Shown: positions 37,908 to 45,200 of the stretch, one piece after another
Numbering within the stretch: position 1 is the first letter of the stretch
Layout of the letters: each line of letters starts with the position of its first letter
Source of the DNA: Bacteroidota bacterium
Lineage (GTDB): Bacteria > Bacteroidota > Ignavibacteria > UBA10030
DNA length: 50,020 nt
Direction: 5' to 3'
Assembly: GCA_025454835.1 (NCBI GenBank)
Contig: JALONQ010000019.1
Span: 1 to 50,020, forward strand
Program-made: the position numbers and the translations under genes
Notes under the pieces: model-generated
Databases searched by the model: none
What the model was told of the DNA's origin: nothing
What the model saw: only the letters and a program-made list of their open reading frames with translations

Positions 37908-38534
37908 TCATCTCGCATGAGCGGAAGTGCCCACGGATCGCCTCTTCCACCACGCCCAAACGCGATATCCCAGGAGGGCGATCACCAGGGCGCCGTAGAT
38001 GAGGGGGCGCTGGATGTCGAATTTGACCAACCAAAGGTAGTGCACGACGCCAAGGATCGCGACGACGTAGACCGCACGGTGCAAGCGTTTCCAAGCTTTT
38101 CCACCCATCCAGCGGGTCACGAATGTCGGCGATGTGATCGCCAGCGGAAGCATCAGCAACCATGCCGCGAAACCCGCCACGATGAATCGACGCGAAGCCA
38201 GGTCCGGAAGGATCTCCGCCCAATCGAAGAACTTGTCGAACGACAGATAGGCCAGGAAGTGCAGCGACCCGTAGAAGAACGCGTAGAGTCCTGCCATCCG
38301 GCGATAGGTCGAGAGCCGGCTCCACCCGGTGAGATCGCGCAGCGGTGTGATGGCGAGCGTGATGAGGATGAAGCGCAGCGTCCAGGTGCCCGTCTCATCC
38401 GTGATATCGTCGAGCGGATTGACCGAGAGCTGGTCCGTGGCGAACCGGTATGCCAGCCATGCGAACGGTACAAGGCCCAGCACGAAGGCCACAACCTTCG
38501 ACCAACGGAACCGCGAACCTCGATCCGATGTCAT
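37908..38534 (-). CDS. msrQ: MsrQ, heme-b membrane subunit of MsrPQ
   Basis: MsrQ (208 residues, formerly YedZ) is a ferric-reductase-like protein of about six helices that feeds quinol electrons to the periplasmic methionine sulfoxide reductase MsrP. Signatures are TGTWTLRFILITLAITPLRD, RRMAGLYAFFYGSLHFLAYL with a heme His, GGKAWKRLHRAVYVVAILGVVHYLW with the other heme His pair, and the basic C-terminus. Length is standard. It lies 227 bp after msrP on the same strand, wider than the usual close pairing. Confidence 0.95.
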   Translation of the reverse strand: MTSDRGSRFRWSKVVAFVLGLVPFAWLAYRFATDQLSVNPLDDITDETGTWTLRFILITLAITPLRDLTGWSRLSTYRRMAGLYAFFYGSLHFLAYLSFDKFFDWAEILPDLASRRFIVAGFAAWLLMLPLAITSPTFVTRWMGGKAWKRLHRAVYVVAILGVVHYLWLVKFDIQRPLIYGALVIALLGYRVWAWWKRRSVGTSAHAR

Positions 38535-38601
38535 TCAGTTCATCACGATTGAATCTTCAGGGGCGCTTCGTTCCAAGACGCCTCGAATGCACCTCAGACC
38601 T

Positions 38602-38685
38602 TCAGCCTTCTTCCCACGGCAGGATCTCACGAGGGACCTTCCCACCACCCTTCTCCGCCGTAGGCTTGCCACGTTCTTGCGCCAT
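38602..38685 (-). CDS. Possible 27-residue microprotein between msrP and msrQ
   Basis: An ATG at 38685 opens 27 codons (starting MAQERGKPTAEKGGGK, ending PWEEG) and stops at 38602. The peptide is hydrophilic and lacks the Arg/Ser bias of chance frames in this GC-rich DNA. A GTG 18 bases upstream is an alternative start. There is no strong ribosome binding site. It may be chance, and nothing is claimed about function. The rest of the 227-bp gap shows no other feature. Confidence 0.22.
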   Translation of the reverse strand: MAQERGKPTAEKGGGKVPREILPWEEG

Positions 38686-38761
38686 CCCATGAACGTGGCC
38701 CACTACAGATCACACGCGGCGTGAAACAACTCTTCATACAGACTCACCTCTCACCCTGATC

Positions 38762-39694
38762 TCAATAGTGCTTCTTCAGGTCCATCCCCGCATACAGACC
38801 TTCGACGAGGCCCGCATAGCCGTTGAGCATCAGCGTCTTCCTTTTTCCAAACTCCCCGATGCGGCGTTCGGTCTTCTGACTCCACCGCGGATGGTCGACC
38901 TCGGGATTGACATTGCTGTAGAAGCCGTACTCGTCCGGTGCCGACAGGTTCCACGTCGTCGGCGGCTCGGTCGCCGTCAGCGTCATGCGGACGATCGACT
39001 TGATCGACTTGAAGCCGTACTTCCAGGGGACCACGAGGCGGAAGGGCGCGCCGTTCTGATTCGGCAGGTCGCGGCCATAGAGACCCGTGGCCATGAAGGT
39101 CAACGGGTGGAGGGCTTCGTCAAGCCGAAGCCCCTCGACGTACGGCCAGTCGAGCACACGACGCCTCTGCCCCGGCATTTCCTCCGGACGAAGGACCGTC
39201 TGAAACGCCACGTATCTGGCTTTGGAGGTCGGCTCGACCCGCTTCAAGATGCTGGCCAGCGGAATGCCGCGCCAAGGAATGACCATCGACCAGCCTTCGA
39301 CGCATCGCATGCGATAGATGCGGTCTTCAACCGCGAACGGCTTCAGCAGGTCCTCAAGCTGGACGTCCGCTTCCTTCTTCACGTGGCCGTCGATGCGGAC
39401 CGTCCACGGCTTTGGCTTGAAGTCGCCCGAGTATGCGGCGGGGTCCGATTTGTCGGTGCCGAACTCGTAGAAGTTGTTGTAGGTCGTGATCTCGCGGAAG
39501 GTGCTGGGCTTCTCATCGGTGTCGTACGGCCCTTGCTTGCCCTGGGGCCAGCGATCCTGGGCAGCGGCCGAAGGGGCGATGAAGGCGCTGATGCCCGAAA
39601 GGCCCACCAACGAGAGCCATGTGCGGCGGGAATAGTACAGGGGCTCCGGTGTGAGCTCGGAGGAGGGGATCTTGGGGACCTGGATACGCGACAT
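38762..39694 (-). CDS. msrP: MsrP, periplasmic methionine sulfoxide reductase
   Basis: MsrP (310 residues, formerly YedY) is a molybdopterin enzyme of the sulfite oxidase fold that repairs oxidised methionines in periplasmic proteins. A Tat-type signal contains [17 protein letters not shown]. The molybdenum-ligating Cys lies in [15 protein letters not shown], followed by the [25 protein letters not shown] segment and the family end [14 protein letters not shown]. The ATG at 39694 is chosen because [12 protein letters not shown] matches other members. It works with MsrQ encoded next door. Confidence 0.96.
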
Positions 39695-39943
39695 TGATCG
39701 AATGACCTCAGACGTGGAAAGAGCACCGTGAGCGATCCGCAACACATGCTGCGACCATCACGAACTCCAACGATGATGGGATTCGCGGGGTTCCTCGGGG
39801 GGACACCGTAAAAGACCTGAACCGCGCTTGAACCGATGTCAACCAGCCGCTGTCGTGCGCTCGACCTCCTGCTTTGGGGACCCAGGATCTGGAATGTCCA
39901 TCGCCTTGTTTGGGGTTTGGGCTCTGCGATCTGGATTCTTCCC
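39695..39943. other. Intergenic region between herA and msrP
   Basis: No gene is seen in these 249 bp. A stretch with TTTGGGGTTTGGGCTCTG (39911-39928) and CGATCTGGATTCTTCCCC looks like low-complexity intergenic repeat sequence. No promoter with proper spacing for msrP was found. Confidence 0.35.
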
Positions 39944-41548
39944 CTACACCTTCTCCTGCTTCCACCACCGCGTCACCACATCTTCGATACGCGTCTTTGC
40001 GTCGCTCTGCTTCCACTTGTCGTAGAACTTGATGTCGGCCGAGTCGGGCTCGGGATTCGGAAAGTCGATCTGGACGCGCAGGGGCATGGAGATGGCCTCG
40101 CCGACCACGAGCGCCTCTCCCTGCCGGAGCGAGGGCAGCACATCGGTCAGGTTGGCGAACGTGTCGGGCACGAGGCGCCGCACGTAGTTCTGGTCGAGGG
40201 GGTTCGTCAGACGCATAATGACGTAGTTGTTGCACTGCGAGAGGATCGTCTCCGACACTTCGACGGGCCGCTGGCTGACGACCATGATGCTGACGCCGTA
40301 CTTGCGCCCTTCCTTGGCGATGCGTTCCACCGTACGCCGTGCGGCCGTTGTCGTCGTTCCCGTCTGGGGCAGATAGTTGTGGGCCTCTTCGAACACCAGG
40401 AGGATGGGAAACTCCCGCCGGTTCGGGTTCCAGAAGTTGAAGTCGAAGATCGTCCGGGCGAGCAACGACACGATCGTGTTGACGATGTCGAAGGGCACGC
40501 CGCTCAGGTCGAGGATCGTCACTTTTGCCGCGCCGTCGGCGCCGAGGATCTTCGCGAGCATGTCGTTCAGCGACTGCGACGTCACGTACTTCTTCGGCCG
40601 GAACATGAAGGCGTAGCGCGGGTCGTTCAGCTTGCCGTCGAGCCGGACGAGGAAGCGGGTGAACTTGCCGTAGAAGGGCCCTTCCTTCGACGAACCGCCC
40701 ATCGAGATCTTCTCCGTGTCCATGTACTGGACTTTGGCACGGATCTCGGCCAGGTCGAAATAGACCGGCGTGTCAATCGTGATGAGCGCCGACATCTCGG
40801 GATTCTTTCCCTTCTTCGACGCGATGACGAGGTCCTTGAGCACCGTGATCTGCGACGACGAATTCTCATCTTTCTCGTCGACGAACATCTCCCGTAACTC
40901 GTCGAAGTTCATCAGCCAGAACGGCAGTTCAAACTCGGCGATGTCGAGGTGGTTGCAATCCCCTTCGAACGCCTTCCGGTACTCGTTGTGAATGTCGAGG
41001 ATGATGATGTTCGTGTCGGGGTACTGCGTGACCTTCTGGAGGATCGACGCGACCGTGCAAGATTTGCCGGACCCCGAAGAGCCCAGCACCGAAATGTGCT
41101 TGCCAAAGAACCGATTGGCGTCGAGGTAGGCGCGTTGATTCTCGAACAGAGAGACCTGCCCGACCGAGAAGCCGTAGCGCTGATAGACCGAGAAGGCCAC
41201 CGTGAGGTCGCTGTCCTCCGCGAGATAGACCGGCGAATCGACGACCGGAAAGAGCGAAACGCCTCGTTCGTAGCGTCCGCCCTTGACCGTGCCGACCAAC
41301 GACGCGGTCATCTTGTATCGCTGTTGCCACTGGCCGTTGATCTGCACGTCCTCCTTCAGGAAGTCGGTCACCATGCCTATCAGCACAAGACTCCCCATCG
41401 GGATCAGCACATACATGCCGATCTGACCGATGAAGTAGGTCTTTCCGTTGAGGTCGCGTTTCAGCGATTTGATGTTCGCGTCGATGAGGACCTCGATCGC
41501 CCCCGTGGAAACGTGTTGAACGACGCCGATGAATTTCTGTTCGAGCAT
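39944..41548 (-). CDS. HerA-type ATPase/DNA translocase (orphan)
   Basis: This 534-residue protein is a HerA/FtsK-superfamily ATPase. A beta-rich N-terminal HAS-barrel (about 5-130) precedes Walker A GSSGSGKS (156-163) and LDIHNEY with a conserved Asp. FPILLVFEEAHNYLP is the Walker B region with catalytic Glu, and SQRPVEVSETILSQCNNYVIMRL is the sensor and arginine-finger region. HerA rings translocate DNA and usually work with the nuclease NurA, or with SIR2 or other effectors in defence. Neither partner gene is adjacent here, so its job is open. Confidence 0.85.
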   Translation of the reverse strand: MLEQKFIGVVQHVSTGAIEVLIDANIKSLKRDLNGKTYFIGQIGMYVLIPMGSLVLIGMVTDFLKEDVQINGQWQQRYKMTASLVGTVKGGRYERGVSLFPVVDSPVYLAEDSDLTVAFSVYQRYGFSVGQVSLFENQRAYLDANRFFGKHISVLGSSGSGKSCTVASILQKVTQYPDTNIIILDIHNEYRKAFEGDCNHLDIAEFELPFWLMNFDELREMFVDEKDENSSSQITVLKDLVIASKKGKNPEMSALITIDTPVYFDLAEIRAKVQYMDTEKISMGGSSKEGPFYGKFTRFLVRLDGKLNDPRYAFMFRPKKYVTSQSLNDMLAKILGADGAAKVTILDLSGVPFDIVNTIVSLLARTIFDFNFWNPNRREFPILLVFEEAHNYLPQTGTTTTAARRTVERIAKEGRKYGVSIMVVSQRPVEVSETILSQCNNYVIMRLTNPLDQNYVRRLVPDTFANLTDVLPSLRQGEALVVGEAISMPLRVQIDFPNPEPDSADIKFYDKWKQSDAKTRIEDVVTRWWKQEKV

Positions 41549-41718
41549 GGCAGCCCTTTCTGCGATTCGAGATCAAAGAACCAACGCGTGGCCGTTGCCA
41601 CGACGTCGCCACTCCCATCACTGGGGCGAGTGCACCGACGATGGACGAACTCGGCCGTTGCACCGATACCCGAAGGCAAGACCCTTTACAGCGATCGCCC
41701 GGATCGACCACGACTTCC

Positions 41719-42957
41719 TCACACGGGCTCCGACATCCGCTTGATGGCGACCAACGTCTTGTCGTCGAAGCTCCCCGCCGCGCCCTCGAAGGAACGCACG
41801 TCCTTCATGAGCGCCTCGCAGAACTCCTTGGCCGAGAGCTGGTGATGCGTCCCGAGGAAGGTCCGAACGCGCTCCTCGGTGTAGAAGTTGCCGTCCGCGT
41901 CGCGCGCCTCCGACAATCCGTCGGTGAAGATGACGACCATGTCACCGGGGCCGACCATCGTGTTTTCGACGCGAAAGGTCTCTTCGGGAAAGGGACCAAG
42001 GATCTGGCCGGTCGGCTCGAGCTCTTCGATGGCCCCCGTCGAGGCATGGTAGACGAGCGGACTGTTGTGCCCCGCGTTCGAGTACAGGAGCAGCCCTTTC
42101 GCGTTGTCCGTCAGCTCGGCGTAGACCATCGTCACGAATTGCTCTTCGGAGAAGGTGCGATTGAGCAGCCGATTGATGCCGCCCATGACGGCGCTGATCT
42201 TCATGTGATACGAGGTGCCCATCCGCAGCGCACCGACGACATAGAGGGCTTGGGCCGCCGCGGAGAATCCCTTGCTGGCAGCATCTCCGACGACGACCGA
42301 CAAACGGTCGGGATCGTCGTCCGACGTGACATAGTCGAAGAAATCACCCCCGACGATCTGCGCGGCCTCCGACACGCCAAAGATGTCGTAATGATAGAAG
42401 CGCTTGGCCGAATCCGGGAGGATACTGAGCTGGATATCCCGGGCCTTGTCGATGTCCTTCGCCATCGCCGTGGCCTTCTGCTCGATCTTCTGACCGCGGA
42501 GCGACGACGTGACCGCGACCGAGATGATGTTGAGGTCGGCGAGCAGGGACTGATCGAGTTCGTCGGCGTTGAAGGCCAGGACGTACTGCGGAACGTCACC
42601 GTGTTTCGACGGCATCCGCTCTCCAACCCCCGTCGCGGCGAACTTCACGATACCGATGCGCCGGAGCGTCGGGTCGGTCTCGTTGGCAATGATCGACCGC
42701 TGGTCGCAGAGCCACTGGAACGCCGGATAGTCGACGGGGATCCGGTACTTTGGCTCGATCCGCTCGATCTGCCCGATCTGATGGACCAACTTGAAGGAGG
42801 CTTGCTTCGGGTCAAATTCCCAGATCCGACCCCCCTTCACTTTGATGTCGGGGCTCTTGACGATCTCGTTCAGGACGTGCTTCAGCAATTCCTTGTCGGT
42901 CCGGAACCGGTCGGACGCGAAGGATTCAATCGTTCGATAGAGACGACGCAGATTCAA
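41719..42957 (-). CDS. RsbU/SpoIIE-type protein serine phosphatase
   Basis: This 412-residue protein has an N-terminal region (15-165) that looks like a GAF-type sensor. A PP2C-like SpoIIE phosphatase domain follows from about 185: IQLSILPDSAKRF, GGDFFDYVTSDDD with metal Asp residues, VVVGDAASKGFSAA, SNAGHNSPLVY, FTDGLSEARD and FDDKTLVAIKR. Such enzymes dephosphorylate anti-sigma antagonists or similar switch proteins. No STAS protein or anti-sigma kinase lies nearby. The gene follows the adenylate cyclase by 71 bp on the same strand, so the two may form one signalling unit. Confidence 0.9.
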   Translation of the reverse strand: MNLRRLYRTIESFASDRFRTDKELLKHVLNEIVKSPDIKVKGGRIWEFDPKQASFKLVHQIGQIERIEPKYRIPVDYPAFQWLCDQRSIIANETDPTLRRIGIVKFAATGVGERMPSKHGDVPQYVLAFNADELDQSLLADLNIISVAVTSSLRGQKIEQKATAMAKDIDKARDIQLSILPDSAKRFYHYDIFGVSEAAQIVGGDFFDYVTSDDDPDRLSVVVGDAASKGFSAAAQALYVVGALRMGTSYHMKISAVMGGINRLLNRTFSEEQFVTMVYAELTDNAKGLLLYSNAGHNSPLVYHASTGAIEELEPTGQILGPFPEETFRVENTMVGPGDMVVIFTDGLSEARDADGNFYTEERVRTFLGTHHQLSAKEFCEALMKDVRSFEGAAGSFDDKTLVAIKRMSEPV

Positions 42958-43028: not shown

Positions 43029-45200
43029 TCATCCGTGACGGGCTTCTCCCACGCTCCACACTTTTACTTTCGCGCGCTTTCCCTTGACGGACATCGATCC
43101 AAGCGGCGACAACCGACACCATTGGGGCTTTGCCAGTTCGTCCGCCGTCGCCCCTGAGATGAGCACCTGTCCGGGCGCCGCCGCACCGCACAGTCGGGAT
43201 CCGAGGTTCACCGTGTCACCGATGACCGTGAAGTCCATCCGGTCCGGGCTGCCCATCGCCCCCATCACCAACACGCCGGTATGGATGCCAATCCCGATCG
43301 ACACGACATCCCGGTCCTCGGGGGCCAAGGCCTCCGAAACCGAACGCTGGATCTCCAACGCCGCACGGACAGCACGCTCGGCCATCCCTTCTCCCTCGAA
43401 GACCGCGACAAGAGCATCGCCCACATATTTGTCGATATCGCCGCCGTGCCTTCGCACGACCCCCGCCTGCGCCGAGAGGATGGCGTTGAGCATACCTACC
43501 ACCCGCTCGGGTTCGACCCGTTCGGAATAGGCAGTGAAGCCGCGGATATCGGAGAAGAACACGGTCGCAGTCTTGCGCGCACCCCCGATGGCCACTCCGT
43601 CCAGCGCGCTCTTCCGGACGGCGTCGACGGTCCCTTGCGAAACGAACCGTTGCAGATGGAGCCGCTCACGCAACCCCCGGACCATGTCGTTGATGCGCCG
43701 CGCCAGCGTGCCGATCTCATCGAGCGTAGCAACGTGGGCTTGAACGGAAAGGTCACCGGCGCCGACGCGCGACGCCACTCGCTCGATCTCCTGTACCGGC
43801 CCGACGACGACGCGACGCATGAAGATGCGAAGCACCAGCCAGATGAGCAAGATCGTTCCACTTCCGACCACTGCCGAACGGACCTGATTCTCGCGGATCG
43901 TCCCGTTGATCGATGCCATCGACGTCGAGACCTCTACCGCGGCCCGTACACGGTGAGTCGAGCCGTGGCACGAATGGCAACGGGGCTCATTCGGGAGATG
44001 AACGATACGGACCATCCGTTCGGCCTCCCCCGTCCCCTCACGGAACTCAAGAGTGTCGCGGTCGTCGATCACCTGGCGGAGCTGTGCCCGCGTCCGGGGC
44101 GGCGGGTTCAGGAAGCGTTCGTGACCTTCCAGGTCGAACACGCGCAACGTCTGCAGCACCTGCTCGTTCCGCAACTCATCCATGAAGTAGCGCACCGACG
44201 TCGCGCGGCCGACAAGCATGATGCTTCGGAAACCCTCGTAGATCGACGTCTGCAGCGTCGCCGTGAATTCCCCTTCTGGATCGCGCGCGTAACGAGAGAG
44301 CGCACGGGAATCATAGTCCACGACGAGCACGCCCCGCATCGGGAACTTGCCTCCGTGACAGACCTGGCACCGCTCTTCGTTGACAAGAGGCGCCGACACG
44401 CGAACGCGCTCCCCCCGGTCTTCAACGACGTGCCGCGATGATGCGGGCCTCAGAAGTTCGGTGACCCTCTCTTCGGAGAGCTCTTCATCTTCAGCGCCGA
44501 AATGCAGAAAGCCAAGCCTATCATACACCTGCACCGACAGGACGCCAGGGATCGTCTCGGCCGCTTCAATCAGCGTATCGATCTGACCGCCATGGCCCCC
44601 GAGCATGATCGTTCGAAAGGCGATGGCGATTGAGTTTGTCAGCGTCGACGCCACGCCGCGCATGGCCGATCGGTCACCCATGGACCGAGCCACTGATGGA
44701 CGAAGTGCCACCTGCAGAACTCCGCGGAGGGGCTCCTTCGGATCATGACATCGCCAGCATTCCGGCCGGTTTGGCAGCGGCGCATACCGCGTCGCCACCG
44801 TGCCGCTGTCGGTGGGAACCATCGCCGAACGGAGCATGCCGGACCGCAGGACCTCGGGGATGATCGGATCATTGACGTCGGTATTGACCCCCTCGCCCTC
44901 TCGCAGAAAGACCTCGCGTCCGAATCGATCGTAGATCGTCACGTCGACGAACTCGACGTTGTTCCGGAGGTCGTTCACCAACTCGATGGCAAACGGCGAT
45001 TTGCCCGTCAGCATCACGTTGCGGATGCCGGCGGTCAGCGCTTCGGTCGAGATGCGCAGTTGATCGCGCTGCTGGGCGATGAGCGCCTCCGATTCCCGCT
45101 GGATCGAGAGAATGACATAGGTCCCGAACCCGATCACGAGCACGACGGTGATCAGGAGCAGGACCTTGAGCTCCAAACGGGATCGAATGGCTGACAGCAC
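43029..45200 (-). CDS. Tri-heme-c sensor adenylate cyclase with HAMP domain
   Basis: This 723-residue membrane protein links a periplasmic redox or ligand sensor to cAMP synthesis. Helices lie at 10-31 and 443-461. Between them stand three similar modules, each with a heme-c motif: CWRCH (148), CQVCH (278) and CHSCH (408), exactly 130 residues apart. HAMP spans 462-515. The class III cyclase domain (543-718) has metal ligands D551 and D595, adenine-specific K591 and T658, and catalytic N665 and R669, so it should make cAMP. The start is a GTG; the promoter lies just upstream, leaving almost no leader. Confidence 0.93.
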   Translation of the reverse strand: MLSAIRSRLELKVLLLITVVLVIGFGTYVILSIQRESEALIAQQRDQLRISTEALTAGIRNVMLTGKSPFAIELVNDLRNNVEFVDVTIYDRFGREVFLREGEGVNTDVNDPIIPEVLRSGMLRSAMVPTDSGTVATRYAPLPNRPECWRCHDPKEPLRGVLQVALRPSVARSMGDRSAMRGVASTLTNSIAIAFRTIMLGGHGGQIDTLIEAAETIPGVLSVQVYDRLGFLHFGAEDEELSEERVTELLRPASSRHVVEDRGERVRVSAPLVNEERCQVCHGGKFPMRGVLVVDYDSRALSRYARDPEGEFTATLQTSIYEGFRSIMLVGRATSVRYFMDELRNEQVLQTLRVFDLEGHERFLNPPPRTRAQLRQVIDDRDTLEFREGTGEAERMVRIVHLPNEPRCHSCHGSTHRVRAAVEVSTSMASINGTIRENQVRSAVVGSGTILLIWLVLRIFMRRVVVGPVQEIERVASRVGAGDLSVQAHVATLDEIGTLARRINDMVRGLRERLHLQRFVSQGTVDAVRKSALDGVAIGGARKTATVFFSDIRGFTAYSERVEPERVVGMLNAILSAQAGVVRRHGGDIDKYVGDALVAVFEGEGMAERAVRAALEIQRSVSEALAPEDRDVVSIGIGIHTGVLVMGAMGSPDRMDFTVIGDTVNLGSRLCGAAAPGQVLISGATADELAKPQWCRLSPLGSMSVKGKRAKVKVWSVGEARHG

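Follow-up and report, generated by a model that had tools for sequence, protein, structure and literature searches.

Introduction

The closest described systems are the heme-c sensor domains of the Geobacter chemoreceptors GSU0582 and GSU0935. In the GSU0935 dimer, His144 and Met60 ligate one of the hemes, with the methionine being bound when the heme is reduced, released when it is oxidized, and displaced by CO or NO (PMC8396549; this and the other articles cited below are used in extract). In a preprint (PMC12889525), this heme-c domain is classed as sCache_heme within the Cache superfamily, and a member joined to HAMP is reported to have the properties of an NO sensor; the definition of single heme-c Cache sensors as a family of this kind is thus very recent. 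The legend to its Figure 2 includes fusions of heme-Cache domains to HAMP and PF00211 cyclases, and the words "tandem" and "repeat" are absent from the main text in the extract used. Here we describe an open reading frame (ORF) that appears to combine three such modules with one cyclase. The ORF lies in a stretch of 50,020 nucleotides, referred to as the window, which corresponds to positions 1 to 50,020 of contig JALONQ010000019.1 (assembly GCA_025454835.1) from a Bacteroidota bacterium (GTDB lineage Bacteroidota; Ignavibacteria; UBA10030).

Results

Domain organization and family membership

The ORF encodes, in order, a transmembrane (TM) helix, three tandem heme-c Cache modules, a second TM helix, a HAMP domain and a class III cyclase:

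43029..45200, minus strand: predicted tri-heme sensor adenylate cyclase, 723 aa, GTG start, kept in the order
45102..45170, minus strand: TM1, about residues 11-33 (hydropathy)
44706..45029, minus strand: module 1, heme-c Cache (PF21563; Pfam, single-module test)
44319..44615, minus strand: module 2, heme-c Cache (PF21563; Pfam, single-module test)
43917..44243, minus strand: module 3, heme-c Cache (PF21563; Pfam, single-module test)
43818..43886, minus strand: TM2, about residues 439-461 (hydropathy; predicted helix 429-480)
43665..43823, minus strand: HAMP, residues 460-512 (PF00672, 45.4 bits)
43056..43571, minus strand: class III nucleotide cyclase, residues 544-715 (PF00211; VIA-align to 3r5g)

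Two TM helices therefore flank the sensor and HAMP follows TM2, which is the layout of HAMP-linked transmembrane receptors; the product is predicted to be an inner-membrane adenylate cyclase with a periplasmic three-Cache part. AlphaFold2 predicts residues 8-64 to form one continuous helix running from TM1 into module 1. A Pfam search of this single 723-residue frame returns three matches to PF21563 (Mcp40H-20_sensor, the GSU0582/GSU0935 family) as well as HAMP and the nucleotide cyclase, in agreement with a preliminary description in which a HAMP-cyclase with a three-heme-site sensor had been proposed. When each module is searched alone, modules 1, 2 and 3 score 28.3, 34.3 and 43.7 bits, respectively, all above the Pfam cut-off of 27 bits. 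The related family PF11845 is barely over its cut-off for the whole protein (25.1 versus 24.1 bits), by way of module 3, and module 3 alone scores 15.1 bits, which is below the cut-off.

Profiles of modules 1, 2 and 3, made from 20, 22 and 24 sequences, align with one another over 112-123 columns with hhalign probabilities of 99.5% (modules 1 and 2), 99.8% (modules 1 and 3) and 99.8% (modules 2 and 3). Identities within the window protein are 35/117, 25/118 and 28/117 for these pairs in the same order, and every inter-module alignment score exceeds all of 300 shuffles, so the likeness of the modules extends beyond CxxCH, as had been suggested. Among solved structures, only 3b42 (GSU0935) and 3b47 (GSU0582) are matched significantly by each profile, with E-values of 2e-7 and 2e-11 for module 1, 4e-10 and 9e-10 for module 2, and 3e-16 and 3e-13 for module 3, which is the nearest of the three to GSU0935. 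The proposed kinship to GSU0582 and GSU0935 is thus upheld by the PF21563 and structure matches, but the label "PAS-like" given to these sensors is not, the domain being assigned to the Cache superfamily in the extract of PMC12889525.

Heme attachment sites and candidate distal ligands

Each module contains one heme attachment motif and one conserved methionine, for which counts are given over 26 aligned rows, the gapped rows being fragments at contig ends:

44745..44759, minus strand: CWRCH heme attachment site, residues 148-152 (C, C and H in 23/23 rows with a residue)
44355..44369, minus strand: CQVCH heme attachment site, residues 278-282 (C, C and H in 23/23 rows with a residue)
43965..43979, minus strand: CHSCH heme attachment site, residues 408-412 (C, C and H in 24/24 rows with a residue)
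45012..45014, minus strand: M63, predicted distal heme ligand, module-1 helix (Met in 23/23; 3 rows gapped)
44604..44606, minus strand: M199, predicted distal heme ligand, module-2 helix (Met in 23/23; 3 rows gapped)
44217..44219, minus strand: M328, predicted distal heme ligand, module-3 helix (Met in 24/24; 2 rows gapped)

The motifs begin at residues 148, 278 and 408 of the window protein, as first reported, and the exact spacing of 130 residues is found in this protein and in some orthologs only, the overall range being 129-137. The flanking motif had been given as N-x-x-C-x-x-C-H, which is one residue short of the actual N-x-x-x-C-x-x-C-H. The three CxxCH motifs use six of the eight cysteines in the protein, the sensor has no cysteine outside them, and two or more CxxCH motifs occur in none of 20,000 shuffles of the protein. 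Each CxxCH lies near the end of its domain, before the last strand, as is characteristic of the PF21563 family.

M63, M199 and M328 align with Met60, the redox-switched ligand of GSU0935, and the "IML-G helix" noted earlier contains its methionine at this known distal ligand position. The methionine-to-histidine spacing is 89 residues in module 1, 83 in module 2 and 84 in module 3 (M328-H412), the last being equal to that between Met60 and His144 in GSU0935 (84). This alignment suggests that methionine is the distal heme ligand in all three modules, and its conservation makes a redox-switched six-coordinate heme likely in each. Covalent attachment of heme c to each module is predicted from the motif together with the cytochrome c assembly proteins (PF01578) that are present in 98/98 genomes of the order, with three matches in the bacterium's own genome; the cytochrome c maturation genes on which the original proposal depended are therefore in place.

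Predicted structure of the sensor

An AlphaFold2 model of residues 36-440, computed with 21 aligned sequences, has a mean pLDDT of 84 and a pTM of 0.71. Foldseek matches this model to 3b42 (E 4.7e-4) and 3b47 (E 2.1e-3), and VIA-align matches it to TlpQ (Z 13.1, 119 residues, rmsd 2.7), WalK (Z 12.6, 119 residues, rmsd 3.0) and CitA (Z 11.3, 124 residues, rmsd 3.5). The matches are thus mainly to Cache-type sensor domains, which supports a Cache fold for the modelled sensor. Alignments to single-Cache chains span the model from about residue 1 to about residue 399, with about 124 positions aligned, and among the best 50 VIA-align rows none falls within module 1 alone or module 3 alone. The dCache sensors TlpC, Mlp24 and KinD are also among the structural matches. 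Taken by themselves, and with low certainty, these aligned ranges may mean that the module 1 helix pairs with the module 3 sheet in a swapped or dCache-like arrangement.

Cyclase domain and a candidate cAMP receptor

In a full-length AlphaFold2 model (m40dbe72265c6; pLDDT 78.9, pTM 0.50), the cyclase domain superposes on CyaB of P. aeruginosa (3r5g) with a VIA-align Z of 26.1 over 182 residues and an rmsd of 2.5; the 50 rows listed for this model contain cyclases, and the comparison is therefore uninformative about the sensor. Residue K591 aligns with lysine in CyaB and in the 6fht cyclase, where the guanylyl cyclase Cya2 (2w01) has glutamate, and T658 aligns with threonine in CyaB, where Cya2 has glycine. 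Because both residues are as in CyaB and unlike Cya2, ATP is the likely substrate. Moreover, D551, K591, D595, N665 and R669 are nearly invariant (90% or more) in orthologs; we take these to be the metal-binding aspartate pair, the lysine that recognizes adenine, and the asparagine/arginine pair of class III cyclases. The alignment thus shows the residues expected of a class III adenylate cyclase, and with the catalytic set intact and the ATP-type lysine kept, the adenylate-cyclase output assigned in the preliminary description appears sound.

Seven frames in the same genome encode cNMP-binding proteins, and one of them has a CRP-type helix-turn-helix (cNMP_binding plus HTH_Crp_2), a CRP-like regulator that makes a cAMP receptor plausible. 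No CxxCH was found in the five other PF00211 frames of this genome.

Origin of the three modules

A first tree of 81 module rows included long-branched single modules, one of which was placed in the module 1 group and one in the module 2 group. These two rows, S_L018 and S_L066, with end branches of 7.36 and 5.17, were dropped before a second tree was built, as were six other single-module rows (S_L091, S_L093, S_L095, S_L098, S_L099 and S_L100) and the three divergent modules of genome G078. In the resulting tree, which contains 66 modules and four single-module rows, the modules group by position, with support of 99/97 for module 1, 98/98 for module 2 and 92/91 for module 3. Grouping by position across families implies that triplication preceded the separation of the genes in family f1 (that of the window) and f3 from those in f6, and it rules out a recent array of in-paralogs. 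The mutual homology of the modules and this grouping together argue that the sensor probably arose by triplication, as was originally suggested, although neither tree shows the three modules as mutually closest relative to all single modules. The f3 modules are placed among f1 rows, so transfer between these families is possible.

Distribution

Searches at an E-value of 0.001 or better give PF21563 matches in 41/98 genomes of the order. Reading the loci reveals all three CxxCH modules in one frame in 21/98 genomes, with nine in f1, one in f3 and eleven in f6, and the number of modules is invariably three in these 21 region-spanning frames. Four of the 21 run off the contig end after module 3; in the orthologs long enough to include the output region, the sensor is joined to HAMP and to a cyclase that retains its catalytic residues. 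Four further genomes (G010, G013, G015 and G085) have fragments of the gene cut by contig ends, so that the three-module gene or its fragments account for 25 of the 41 matching genomes. The other 16 contain kinases with CX2CH and CX4CH, chemoreceptor or PAS proteins, and fragments, all lacking a cyclase motif; a version of this cyclase with fewer than three modules was looked for in these 16 and not seen, as far as the incomplete sequences among them allow a judgement. Close relatives include proteins from Ignavibacteria/Ignavibacteriales (L012, 66% identity; L013 and L014, 57%) and from 'Bacteroidia bacterium HBSIN02' (L016, 55%).

Tandem modules were also sought more widely, in genome samples that overlap and in which Geobacter's own phylum is not sampled as such. 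In the class sample (391 genomes, order included), 17 genomes outside the order match, none with two modules in one frame; four rows flagged for weaker same-frame neighbors were read, and none has two CX2CH motifs. In the phylum sample (395 genomes), 12 genomes match, three of them in the order, and no tandem was seen outside the order. The phylum of genome G694 (398 genomes) yields 116 listed places in 50 genomes, again with no two modules in one frame as judged by coordinates, and the 20 regions read, which include all 13 flagged rows, contain 21 ORFs with one CxxCH each. Plasmids gave no PF21563 match. Single-module HAMP cyclases with a CxxCH motif are found in UASB270 (L015), Spirochaetia (L017) and Spirochaeta (L018).

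Other heme-motif proteins were encountered in these genomes. Histidine kinases of the window's own genome (G000:C11:13444-13752, L010) and of many relatives (L038, L040, L167-L171, L174-L178, L181-L184) have, within one periplasmic domain, a CX2CH motif followed 42-44 residues later by NE-x-x-C-x4-C-H-x-H. These are probably diheme sensors, perhaps like those in PMC3831638. In addition, a 771-residue frame (G000:C3:100119-100184, L011) that contains 13 CxxCH motifs and is hydrophobic in its C-terminal part has the appearance of a large multiheme cytochrome.

Neighboring genes

Four genes on the same strand lie downstream of the cyclase gene:

41719..42957, minus strand: PP2C/SpoIIE phosphatase, 71 bp downstream of the cyclase (PF07228; synteny in f1)
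39944..41548, minus strand: HerA-like ATPase (PF01935; neighbor in f1 and f6)
38762..39745, minus strand: MsrP, periplasmic methionine sulfoxide reductase (NF003767 equivalog, 458.5 bits)
37908..38534, minus strand: MsrQ, heme subunit of MsrPQ (NF003831 equivalog, 179.6 bits)

The order cyclase-SpoIIE-HerA-MsrP-MsrQ on one strand is complete in the window and in seven other f1 genomes (G001, G010, in which the cyclase is cut by the contig end, G011, G012, G014, G019 and G023). This synteny suggested MsrPQ as a dedicated partner that repairs the three ligand methionines, an idea that fails on co-occurrence. MsrP is present in 10/12 cyclase genomes of f1 versus 8/20 others, and all eight f1 genomes with MsrP and no cyclase retain the SpoIIE-HerA-MsrP-MsrQ cluster; in f6, MsrP is found in 1/12 cyclase genomes versus 4/10 others. 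Any association is thus limited to f1, and the retention of the cluster without the cyclase, together with the rarity of MsrP in f6, speaks against a functional linkage. Independently of the cyclase, the juxtaposition of a HerA-like ATPase with methionine sulfoxide repair genes (window 37908-42957) is itself a conserved feature of f1.

In f6, HerA precedes the cyclase in 11/12 genomes, the twelfth (G085) being cut. Downstream of the cyclase, 7/9 loci examined share a homologous gene (assigned to GHL10 by Pfam in L086), which suggests a different operon partner from that in f1. In L086 (6102-10014), the cyclase gene overlaps or abuts this downstream GHL10 glycosyl-hydrolase-like gene. HerA is the only neighbor found in both f1 and f6, and the gene context therefore does not name the signal.

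Discussion

A working model and its alternatives

We consider the chances to be about evenly balanced that the protein is a redox-driven, Met/His-ligated three-heme periplasmic sensor acting through HAMP on a homodimeric adenylate cyclase. Each Cache module would carry one covalent c-type heme, ligated by the histidine of CxxCH and, when reduced, by the conserved methionine, and because the cyclase is presumably a homodimer, there would be six hemes per dimer. By analogy with GSU0582 and GSU0935, oxidation of the iron would free the methionine, with water taking its place, and NO or CO would displace it from the reduced heme. The freed helix could then shift TM1 relative to TM2, HAMP would relay this movement to the cyclase dimer, and the altered cAMP output would be read by the CRP-type regulator. 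The three modules might broaden the response or make it graded, for instance if they had three different midpoint potentials. Ligation, signal, direction of regulation and dimerization are all modelled here on GSU0582/GSU0935 and on class III cyclases generally. We judge redox state to be the primary signal, with NO close behind.

A less probable but substantial alternative is that the protein is primarily a periplasmic NO sensor, in which NO binds the reduced heme, displaces methionine and drives the cyclase, the three modules serving to raise affinity or cooperativity. The one signalling-fused heme-Cache protein tested with NO in the extract of PMC12889525 behaved as an NO sensor, the HAMP-linked protein having bound NO with slow release and formed no stable oxygen complex, and GSU0582 and GSU0935 bind NO as well. 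Set against these observations, the methionine conserved in all three modules favors a redox switch in each, and no NO enzyme is present among the seven neighbors scanned.

An unlikely elaboration, which builds on the predicted helix pairing, is a single-chain, domain-swapped three-heme relay. The TM1-M63 helix would sit on heme 3 and the M328 helix over heme 1, so that the heme 3 Fe-Met bond ties TM1 to TM2 while the other two hemes, having different potentials, tune the latch or feed electrons to it, giving a multi-step redox meter with cAMP as its output. If this is true, the Fe-Met bond would be a direct TM1-TM2 latch, since the last strand of module 3 runs into TM2.

More doubtful still is the idea that sensing is confined to one or two modules, the rest acting as structural spacers or as a redox relay, with heme kept for folding. 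Conservation is lowest in module 2 (mean column identity of 53% versus 61% and 60% in the other two), and the apparent pairing of the membrane-linked module 1 helix with the module 3 sheet in the model would fit a division of labor, but no covering row departs from the heme site or the distal methionine in any of the three modules, and the number of modules is constant across the 21 region-spanning frames. It is very improbable that the protein is a periplasmic electron-transfer component or heme enzyme rather than a sensor, because, although redox roles have been proposed for stand-alone heme-Cache proteins (extract of PMC12889525), the fusion of HAMP and a conserved cyclase to the sensor points to signalling.

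Whichever reading applies, a fixed three-module array that has the same methionine in each module across three families would offer a natural system for asking why a sensor should have several hemes, whether to cover a broader range of redox states, to respond cooperatively or to pass electrons internally. Moreover, cAMP is a simple readout, and work on ligands, potentials and mutations should be easier than in chemoreceptors.

Comparison with known systems

The extracts used already document heme-c Cache sensors and their cyclase fusions (PMC12889525), as well as sensors in which a second heme motif is present (PMC3831638). The earlier statement that a three-heme stack on a HAMP-cyclase is undescribed holds for the open-licence literature consulted in extract, including PMC3460858, PMC8396549, PMC2577667 and PMC3831638, in which no tandem or three-module heme-Cache form was found. 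The chemoreceptors GSU0582 and GSU0935 (3b47 and 3b42) share the domain family, the heme-c site and the distal methionine, and the methionine of their Met/His switch lies in the N-terminal helix region, at a position that is aligned and invariant in all three modules described here; they have, however, one module on a methyl-accepting chemotaxis protein, as opposed to three on an adenylate cyclase. The wider sCache_heme/DUF3365/Tll0287-like group (PF11845) likewise has a Cache fold in which CxxCH is inserted ahead of the last strand, according to the extract of PMC12889525. Within that group, the Tll0287-like proteins are stand-alone and have Cys/His ligation, whereas the present sensor is fused to a HAMP-cyclase and is free of cysteines other than those of CxxCH.

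The single-module cyclases L015, L017 and L018 come closest in architecture, with a CxxCH motif, an upstream ML/MM-x-G methionine, HAMP and a cyclase, but they have one heme module and a longer Met-His spacing (108-113), and PF21563 exceeds its cut-off in L015 alone, falls short of it in L018 and gives no match in L017. Tandem Cache domains in the periplasmic part of a receptor are also seen in the dCache sensors TlpC, Mlp24 and KinD, which have two modules and are not known to carry heme, whereas all three modules here have a heme site. Adeh_2011, Adeh_3383, GSU0591 and GSU0599 likewise have a periplasmic sensor with multiple heme motifs; in the extract of PMC3831638, however, the extra motif is described as lying within such a sensor, with mention of neither three homologous tandem modules nor a cyclase. 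Relative to these known forms, what appears to be new on sequence grounds is the presence of three tandem heme-c Cache modules on one cyclase, conserved in the order.
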